This document shows, one piece after another, positions 56,276 to 59,042 of a DNA stretch of 64,000 nt. The stretch is from Nitrososphaeria archaeon (GTDB lineage Archaea; Thermoproteota; Nitrososphaeria; Nitrososphaerales; JAAOZN01), in NCBI GenBank assembly GCA_029775855.1, contig JARVJZ010000004.1, positions 68,901 through 132,900 of the forward strand, written 5' to 3'. How positions within the stretch are numbered: the stretch's first letter is position 1; each line of letters starts with the position of its first letter. The notes under the pieces are model-generated. The model had not been told where the DNA came from, ran no database searches, and worked only from the letters and a program-made list of their open reading frames with translations. The translations under genes and the position numbers were made by a program.

Positions 56276-57904
56276 GTGGTTAAGATGGCTCTAATAGAAA
56301 TTAAGGAAGCCGAAGCTAAGCTTCATGAAGAAATTATCAGAAGGACACAGAGCCTATGCCCAGAATGCAACCGTATACTAGACGCCGAAATCCTAGAGAG
56401 AGACTCAAAGATATATCTGCGGAAAATCTGCCCAGAGCACGGTGAAGTAGAAGAACTCTACTACGGCTCAGCCGAACTATACAAGAAGTTCAGCACCTAT
56501 TGGCGTGATGGAAAAGGGATACAAAATCCCAATGTTCCCGTGGACTCCTGTGCCTGCCCAATGAATTGCGGGCTATGCACAAACCACTTAAGCCACACAG
56601 GTTTAGCGAATATAATAATCACGAACAGATGTGACTTAACTTGCTGGTACTGCTTCTTCTACGTTAAGAAGGGGTTAGAGGGCGCATACGTGTATGAACC
56701 TACATTGGAGCAGATAAGATCTATGGTCAGAACCTTAAGGGCTGAAAGACCTGTCGCAGGTAACTCCATACAGTTAACCGGCGGAGAGCCGACGCTGAGG
56801 GACGACTTGATAGAGATCATCAAGATGATAAAGGAGGAGGGTGTAGATCACGTGCAGCTAAACACGAATGGAATAAACCTAGCTTTAGACCCTCAGCTCG
56901 CCTACAAGATCAAGGAGGCTGGTGTAAGCAACCTCTACATGAGCTTCGACGGTGTGACAGCAAGAACGAACCCTAAGAATCATTGGGAAGCACCTTACGC
57001 CATAGAGAACTGCAGAAGGGCTGGCGTCGGCGTAGTCTTAGTGCCTACTGTAATCAAGGGGATGAATGACCATGAGCTAGGAGCGATAATAAGATATGCT
57101 CAAAAAAACATTGATGTGGTTAGAGCGGTGAACTTCCAACCCGTCTCACTGACAGGTAGGATGGCTAAGCAAGACAGAGAGAAGTATAGGATAACGATAC
57201 CAGACTGCATAAAGGCTATCGAAGAACAGACTAACGGCGAAGTCCCAACAGAAGCTTGGTTCCCGGTGCCCAGCTGCTCACCATTAACCAACTTCATCGA
57301 GGTGTTGACAAATAAACCGAAGTATGAGTTATCGATACATTTTGCCTGCGGCGCAGGAACCTATGTCTTCACAGACGAAGAAGGGAGGCTTATACCGATA
57401 ACGAGCTTCGTAGATGTAAGGGGATTAATCGAATACTTGGAGGAGAAAACAGAGGAGTTAAAGAGCGGTGAAAACAGATACAAAGTGATGGCTCATATGC
57501 TTCTAAAGCTTGGGTCATTTATAGATAAAGCTAAGCAGCCTAAGGGACTCAACCTAACAAAGATGCTACTCAAAATCATCTTAAGGCACGACTACTCATC
57601 TGTTGGGGAGTGGCACAGGAGAAGCCTCTTCCTAGGTATGATGCACTTCCAGGACAAGTATAACCACGATGCTGAGAGGGTTCAGCGCTGTGACATACAT
57701 TACCTTACACCAGACTTGAGGATAATACCGTTCTGCTCATTCAACGTGATACCTGAGTGGTATAGAGACAGGATTCAGAAGAAGTACGGCATACCAGTAG
57801 AAGAATGGGAGAAGATACACGGTCAAAAAATAGAAGACAAGCTCTACAAAGGCACGCTACGAAAGGGTGAGAAAGCCGCATATAGCTGCGGCCAGTGCCT
57901 ATAA
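56276..57904 (+). CDS. tes: Tetraether-lipid-synthase-like radical SAM enzyme (Tes family)
   Basis: A 542-residue radical SAM protein. The N-terminal C28-x2-C31 ... C52PEHGEVEELYYG block, then C92-x-C94-x3-C98-x2-C101 (SCACPMNCGLC), the radical SAM motif C119-x3-C123-x2-C126 (CDLTCWYC), and a C-terminal cysteine pair (SCGQCL) give the multi-cluster layout of Tes, which joins archaeol tails into tetraethers. Typical Tes has CNLRCPICF; the CDLTCWYCFFYV variant marks a different subgroup, so the exact reaction (tetraether, H-bridge or other tail chemistry) is open. The start is GTG 56276 behind a TATA-like CTTTATAACC (leaderless); ATG 56285 is the alternative. The next gene follows or overlaps. 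Confidence 0.82.
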   Translation: MVKMALIEIKEAEAKLHEEIIRRTQSLCPECNRILDAEILERDSKIYLRKICPEHGEVEELYYGSAELYKKFSTYWRDGKGIQNPNVPVDSCACPMNCGLCTNHLSHTGLANIIITNRCDLTCWYCFFYVKKGLEGAYVYEPTLEQIRSMVRTLRAERPVAGNSIQLTGGEPTLRDDLIEIIKMIKEEGVDHVQLNTNGINLALDPQLAYKIKEAGVSNLYMSFDGVTARTNPKNHWEAPYAIENCRRAGVGVVLVPTVIKGMNDHELGAIIRYAQKNIDVVRAVNFQPVSLTGRMAKQDREKYRITIPDCIKAIEEQTNGEVPTEAWFPVPSCSPLTNFIEVLTNKPKYELSIHFACGAGTYVFTDEEGRLIPITSFVDVRGLIEYLEEKTEELKSGENRYKVMAHMLLKLGSFIDKAKQPKGLNLTKMLLKIILRHDYSSVGEWHRRSLFLGMMHFQDKYNHDAERVQRCDIHYLTPDLRIIPFCSFNVIPEWYRDRIQKKYGIPVEEWEKIHGQKIEDKLYKGTLRKGEKAAYSCGQCL

Positions 57905-58876: not shown

Positions 58877-59042
58877 GGGGACGTAGTCTAGCAAGGTTCC
58901 TGTTGAGCCCTGGAGAGGTAGGACGACAGGCTCCAGAGGTTTAGTGCTATAGGTTCGCTGACAGTGTTGGATGATGTACCCTTTGGAGCTAGGGTGAGGG
59001 GGAACCTGTAGGCCGTGGGTTCAAGTCCCACCGTCCCCACCA
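58877..59042 (+). tRNA. tRNA-Trp (anticodon CCA) with two inserted segments
   Basis: Acceptor GGGGACG (58877-58883) pairs with CGTCCCC (59032-59038); the discriminator is A and CCA is encoded. The D stem is GTCT (58886-58889) with GGAC (58921-58924). The anticodon stem ACAGG (58926-58930) pairs with CCTGT (59005-59009). The loop starts C-T-CCA-G, so the anticodon is CCA (58933-58935). The T arm is GTGGG-TTCAAGT-CCCAC. A canonical-position intron (after nt 37) spans about 58937-59003 (67 nt). It gives a bulge-helix-bulge-like junction, with CTCC paired to GGGG and 3-nt bulges AGA and GAA; the helix on the intron side is weak. About 24 extra nt (58893-58916) interrupt the D loop and may be a second intron. 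Confidence 0.85.
58937..59003 (+). ncRNA. Candidate cis-acting box C/D guide RNA within the tRNA-Trp intron
   Basis: The intron contains CTGA (58958-58961, box D'-like) and ATGATGT (58971-58977, box C'-like, one mismatch), 9 nt apart. The 10 nt before CTGA (58948-58957) include an antisense to the 3' side of the anticodon stem (59002-59011), such that the fifth base before the box faces nucleotide 39. A second antisense (58980-58989) pairs over 10 bp with 58930-58939, covering nucleotide 34. Haloferax tRNA-Trp introns guide methylation of 34 and 39 in this way. The outer C and D boxes are degenerate here (AGTG and GTGA at best), so activity is uncertain. Confidence 0.5.

Follow-up and report, generated by a model that had tools for sequence, protein, structure and literature searches.

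Does the intron that interrupts the tRNA-Trp gene in the 64,000 nucleotides of archaeal DNA analysed here (the window) guide the 2'-O-methylation of the very tRNA that carries it? The original prediction proposed a cis-acting box C/D guide directed to nucleotides 34 and 39. Guide-like antisense elements to both nucleotides were found, but the box C/D architecture held only in part, as the intron contains an internal D'/C' motif and no terminal C/D motif. From the sequence comparisons described below, the intron is best read as a variant, with a single kink-turn (a "half-mer"), of the guide known from euryarchaeal tRNA-Trp introns.

The tRNA-Trp gene and the elements of its 37/38 intron

The acceptor, D, anticodon and T stems of the tRNA-Trp were legible in the sequence and the 3' CCA was encoded in the gene. 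The tRNA was the sole credible match in an Rfam scan with a relaxed threshold, and an ARAGORN run did not call a tRNA-Trp at these positions. The anticodon corresponded to 58933-58935 and hence C34 and C39 to 58933 and 59005. The features of the locus are the following:

58877 to 59042, plus strand: tRNA-Trp(CCA) gene with two introns (Rfam RF00005, 45.1 bits; stems read from the sequence)
58894 to 58915, plus strand: D-loop intron of 22 nt with its own bulge-helix-bulge (BHB), helix CUAG 58888-58891 with CUGG 58910-58913
58933, plus strand: C34, predicted target of the second antisense element, facing G58986
58937 to 59003, plus strand: canonical 37/38 intron of 67 nt, BHB read from the sequence
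58947 to 58956, plus strand: C39 antisense, pairing with 59002-59011 (10 pairs, one G.U)
58958 to 58961, plus strand: box D' (CTGA), whose first base forms a covarying pair with the sixth of C'
58962 to 58970, plus strand: kink-turn loop and stem I between D' and C'; stem I pairs covary in relatives
58971 to 58977, plus strand: box C' (ATGATGT), forming the sheared GA/GA pairs
58980 to 58989, plus strand: C34 antisense, pairing with 58930-58939 (10 pairs, one G.U)
58998 to 59001, plus strand: intron strand of the BHB helix, read from the sequence and competing with 58980-58989 for C32-C35
59005, plus strand: C39, predicted target of the D' guide, facing G58953

In the BHB of the 37/38 intron, C32U33C34C35 pairs with GGGG and the bulges are AG|A and GA|A. 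The helix of the D-loop intron is flanked on either side by 3-nt bulges and covaries among relatives (CUAG/CUGG to CCAG/CUGG), and excision of this intron leaves the D-loop AGCAAGGTA. The D-loop intron was also found outside the window's family (f1), in families f4, f5, f7, f12, f13, f16 and part of f11. In one tRNA-Trp of family f5 (L058), the D-loop and 37/38 introns were accompanied by an apparent third one, located around the variable loop and T-arm. Genome G017 bore two tRNA-Trp-like genes about 255 bases apart (L048, 1529-1601 and 1784-1858), each with a D'/C' kink-turn intron, the C39 antisense being poor in the second. Upstream of the window's tRNA gene, positions 56276-57904 hold an ORF for 542 aa in which a radical-SAM-like motif, CDLTCWYC, can be read.

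Both boxes named in the original prediction were present where listed above. It had also placed the ten bases before CTGA opposite 59002-59011; ten pairs were indeed found, with C39 facing G58953, the fifth base upstream of the box, but the duplex is formed by 58947-58956 and G58957, which adjoins the box, is unpaired. The predicted 10-bp antisense covering nucleotide 34 was likewise found. The C39 duplex spans the 3' splice junction and the C34 duplex the 5' splice junction. The C34 helix belongs to the minimum-energy fold of the window's precursor arm, whose folding energy was ordinary (z -0.78), single-sequence folding being uninformative on significance.

Since CUGA precedes AUGAUGU, the motif corresponds to an internal D'/C'. 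No box D was present in the window at the place where N+5 would put it for C34 (58991-58994 is AGGG), and no box C close to the intron start. The absence was general, as CTGA was found from +3 to +13 past the C34 partner in 0 of 100 Thermoproteota introns, and the best box C matches upstream of the D' guide in these introns were at the level of shuffled sequence. The N+5 rule is therefore inapplicable to C34, there being no box D to measure from. The C34 partner was instead the 8th base after C' in 90 of the 100 introns and the 9th or 10th in the other 10 (9th in the window); the 8th is where a 12-nt spacer would put it, the box D itself being absent. Three substitutes for the missing boxes were considered and rejected: GUGA at 58994-58997 as box D, whose register points to base 31, TGA occurring at no fitting fixed place; a terminal kink-turn concealed in the intron ends, where box C matches equalled those of shuffled sequence; and a circular intron forming a second C/D pair at its junction, the joined ends having no boxes. 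Set against a canonical archaeal box C/D sRNA, the intron has the internal kink-turn or K-loop and lacks the terminal C and D.

Covariation and distribution in Thermoproteota

A covariance model was built from 29 introns of Nitrososphaerales, in which covariation was already clear, and 101 introns (100 distinct, from 44 families) were then aligned to it. In the guide conformer, 250 cells were changed on both sides, compared with 79.6 ± 9.2 after shuffles that ignore relatedness, none of 500 shuffles being as high; the covariation score was 0.297 against 0.03-0.07 in slid structures. The first pair of the kink-turn boxes (D'1-C'6) was CG in 73 introns, AU in 15, UG in 4, UA in 2 and GU in 1.

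In agreement with the N+5 rule claimed for nucleotide 39, the C39 antisense had 81.2% of its cells paired at this register and 21-44% at registers shifted by 1-6, and because the exon side of this duplex also pairs in the anticodon stem, the independent evidence lies in the guide-side and i-1/i-2 changes. All 8 of 8 pairs were formed in 57 of the 100 introns, the C39 pair was G-C in 85 and the register was exact across 33 families; with targets swapped between introns, 582 ± 6 pairs were formed instead of the 650 obtained with their own targets. The C34 duplex had 92.5% of its cells paired and kept 7-8 of 8 pairs in all 100 introns, and the sheared GA/GA pairs were kept in 99, retention that is partly due to the introns having been picked by a model of such introns, which does not apply to the compensatory changes seen at i1-i3. 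For the intron bases i1-i4 of this duplex, 263 pairs were formed compared with 213 ± 7 after exchange, the exon part being unable to vary. Both within and between families, the kink-turn, i1-i3 and i-1/i-2 are still undergoing compensatory change. Thus, the alignment of relatives' introns that had been proposed as a check showed the kink-turn, the C39 duplex and the intron part of the C34 duplex to be kept by compensation. The chance of a 10/10 match at one fixed register is about 7e-5; conservation together with compensatory change constitutes far stronger support than this figure. What the comparison demonstrates, at the level of sequence, is that both duplexes and the kink-turn exist, that the spacings are fixed and that the terminal boxes have been lost.

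The anticodon stem and the BHB helix are also kept (90% paired in the 100 introns), implying that the precursor has to change from one fold to another. The position of both duplexes across splice junctions, and the covariation of i1-i3 and i-1/i-2 with the guides, suggest that the unspliced precursor is the substrate.

The host had been taken for a TACK archaeon, which was borne out. The intron recurs across Thermoproteota: within the class, the model matched 240 of 400 genomes, belonging to 60 of 82 genera, and within the phylum 185 of 398, belonging to 86 of 164 genera. The window's family consists of three genomes of one genus, all with the intron. Archaeal AmoA was found in several families of the order (f2, f3, f8 and f10) and in none of the window's family, from which we infer that the order is Nitrososphaerales and the window's lineage in it one without AmoA. 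The intron also occurs in Nitrosopumilaceae-like genomes and in Sulfolobaceae (family f42, loci L152 and L156), the latter identified by the Sac7d family in 8 of 8 tested members, with S. acidocaldarius as the only positive among controls. Neither a model match nor a short-intron tRNA-Trp match was found in five AmoA-bearing genomes of family f8 (G009, G023, G032, G040 and G055).

Comparison with euryarchaeal introns and stand-alone sRNAs

The euryarchaeal tRNA-Trp intron guides Cm34 and Um39, as established experimentally (PMC4090602 and the review PMC7994747). The original prediction had stated that haloarchaeal introns guide these same two positions; that review agrees, and the relation of the window's intron to them is supported by shared elements and spacing. 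For a control, GTDB genomes were scanned with a pattern in which D', C' and D had to follow one another at canonical spacing. Among the loci found, 103 were tRNA-Trp introns, nearly all on euryarchaeal contigs (Archaeoglobus L195, for example), with box D in all of them by the pattern and box C visible in most; C34 lay opposite the 8th base after C', a spacing fixed by the pattern, though the loci found fall in tRNA-Trp. The tRNA-Trp intron on one contig filed under Bathyarchaeota JdFR-04 (L241) is of the Archaeoglobus type, complete with C, D', C' and D, and the contig is possibly misbinned.

The euryarchaeal guide, known as sR50 in Pyrococcus and also from Haloferax volcanii, resides in the same tRNA and at the same intron site as the Thermoproteota intron. 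Introns of both groups have a D' guide for nucleotide 39, a downstream guide for C34 and a D'/C' motif, with the C34 partner 8 nt after C' and both duplexes over the splice junctions. They differ in that the euryarchaeal introns compared here possess a box D, and most of them a recognizable box C too, whereas the Thermoproteota introns have neither, and in that nucleotide 39 is C in the window and U in Haloferax. Judging from these sequences, the Thermoproteota intron appears to have kept the euryarchaeal geometry and lost the terminal boxes. It had been suggested that such an intron in a TACK archaeon would either widen the range of the device or show convergence; the range does extend to Thermoproteota, but the case is neither isolated nor, to all appearances, convergent, because gene, site, element order and spacings are shared, which makes common descent with the euryarchaeal intron likelier.

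In Thermoproteota, the tRNA-Trp-like matches to the D-boxed pattern that were examined (about a dozen were left out) lie outside any tRNA and resemble stand-alone sRNAs. Stand-alone C'-guide34-D sRNAs were found in families f33, f50 and f82 and in one f35 genome; none of the genomes bearing them was among the intron-model matches, and several had a tRNA-Trp uninterrupted at 37/38. In one of these sRNAs (L326), the remaining guide agrees with C39 at N+5 as well. The pattern search found no stand-alone D-boxed guide for C34 in the window's genome and no substitute D-boxed guide in genomes carrying the intron. Stand-alone anticodon-34 sRNAs have been described in Pyrobaculum (Lui et al. 2018, as cited in the review PMC7994747); they have the same C34 antisense as the intron and differ from it in being separate genes that act in trans and contain a box D. 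Matches in family f45 (CACCTGGAGGGCTGA) were not counted as tRNA-Trp guides, since they look like a different C/D sRNA. The f45 genomes (L316-L323) have a conserved C/D-like sRNA of the form TGATGA...GGCTGTCGGGACA...GTGATGA..CACCTGGAGGGCTGA.

A probable single-kink-turn guide and its alternatives

Taken together, the comparisons make it probable that pre-tRNA-Trp carries, in its 37/38 intron, a guide for 2'-O-methylation that relies on a single kink-turn. In the window's genome, the fibrillarin gene adjoins that of Nop5 and an L7Ae gene is also present. CUGA and AUGAUGU fold as a kink-turn to which L7Ae would bind, bringing Nop5 and fibrillarin. In the unspliced precursor, the bases upstream of D' would pair with the 3' exon-intron junction, placing C39 five bases from D', and the stretch after C' would pair with the 5' exon-intron junction, placing C34 eight bases from C' (nine in the window), as in a canonical 12-nt C'-to-D spacer whose box D is gone. 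Both nucleotides would thereby be methylated, and the precursor would then refold into the BHB form and be spliced. Cm34 has been found in the tRNA-Trp of S. acidocaldarius (PMC7668247), the sole Thermoproteota methylation record found for positions 34 and 39; the intron is present in the sampled Sulfolobaceae.

Several points speak against a guide: in Sulfolobus a protein enzyme could make Cm34, C34 has no box from which N+5 could be counted, the folding energy of the window's arm is ordinary, and archaeal guides are reported to require both motif pairs in a symmetric RNP (PMC8413462, and also titles cited by PMC3608112), whereas the intron has one. A half-mer box C/D RNP has been described (PMC3608112) with one kink-turn per RNA and guide strands on either side, as in the intron; it is a laboratory construct from structural work, while the intron would be a natural, phylum-wide RNA. 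We tentatively propose, at somewhat less than an even chance, a natural half-mer across Thermoproteota with one kink-turn and one L7Ae-Nop5-fibrillarin set, in which C34 would be measured from C' and not from box D. The RNP would then be asymmetric, or a Nop5 dimer would link two introns. The N. equitans tRNA-Met intron (PMC3491384), of similar length (66 nt) and with C/D-like elements, has been proposed as a C/D guide; it belongs to another tRNA. Our literature search returned no account of the intron in Thaumarchaeota or of terminal-box loss; the field's key original papers lay outside it and priority is uncertain.

Alternatively, the kink-turn and antisense elements could serve splicing or folding of the precursor and not methylation, L7Ae and the C34 duplex timing BHB formation. 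The two duplexes lie over splice junctions in competition with the BHB helix, the C34 helix is part of the minimum-energy fold and box D for C34 is missing in 100 of 100 introns, all as such a role would have it. Yet it would need neither the exact N+5 register of C39 in 33 families nor the fixed 8-nt distance from C' to C34, families lacking the intron encode a trans sRNA that is antisense to the same anticodon and has its box D in place, and the euryarchaeal homologue is a proven guide (PMC7994747), so that we consider this role unlikely.

The original prediction had named relatives lacking the antisense elements as evidence against itself, and for position 39 such relatives exist. The C39 antisense was lost (≤4 of 8 pairs) in 24 introns from eight of the 44 families, including 12 of 12 introns of the AmoA-bearing, Nitrosopumilaceae-like family f10, with C34 pairing and the kink-turn staying in nearly all (24/24 and 20/24, respectively). 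As no C39 guide is left in these introns, D'/C' would have just two remaining uses, the C34 side or protein binding in its own right; its retention in 20 of 24 suggests the former, and it is mainly because the kink-turn outlives the C39 guide that C34 may be served by a single-motif RNP. Most introns of family f11 (L052-L064) have their C39 antisense bracketed by GTCAAAC and GTTTGATGAC, which could form a competing hairpin.

These losses, together with the disappearance of terminal C and D boxes everywhere, could also be signs of a decaying euryarchaeal-type guide, a remnant whose methylations are now made by proteins or other sRNAs. A remnant is, however, hard to reconcile with compensatory change still under way at the kink-turn, i1-i3 and i-1/i-2, with the near invariance of C34 pairing and its spacing from C', and with the failure to find a substitute D-boxed guide in intron-bearing genomes, and we regard decay as highly improbable. 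Less credible again is an independent origin of the Thermoproteota guide, a matter of descent that is compatible with the single-kink-turn guide. Many archaeal tRNAs gain introns independently and the box complement differs between the two groups, but the tRNA, the 37/38 site, the order guide39-D'-C'-guide34 and the N+5 and 8-nt spacings are the same in both. That an ordinary tRNA intron matches by chance, a single 10-bp match being not negligible over many registers, is refuted by conservation with covariation in 86 of the 164 sampled genera of the phylum and has a very small probability.

Our verdict is that the intron is real, functional by comparison and apparently homologous to the known device, of which it would be a distinct single-kink-turn variant. 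A device described for Euryarchaeota is now extended to Thermoproteota, and the swapping of a cis guide for a separate guide gene is documented among families. Loss of the C39 antisense with C34 pairing kept predicts differing methylation patterns in the families named above. The accepted view is that an archaeal box C/D enzyme requires two protein sites in symmetry and that the methylated base is counted from D or D'; an intron with one site, and with C34 fixed from C' in most relatives, makes this symmetry rule directly testable in Sulfolobus. The half-mer reading, if true, would break the rule of two symmetric motifs for archaeal guides.
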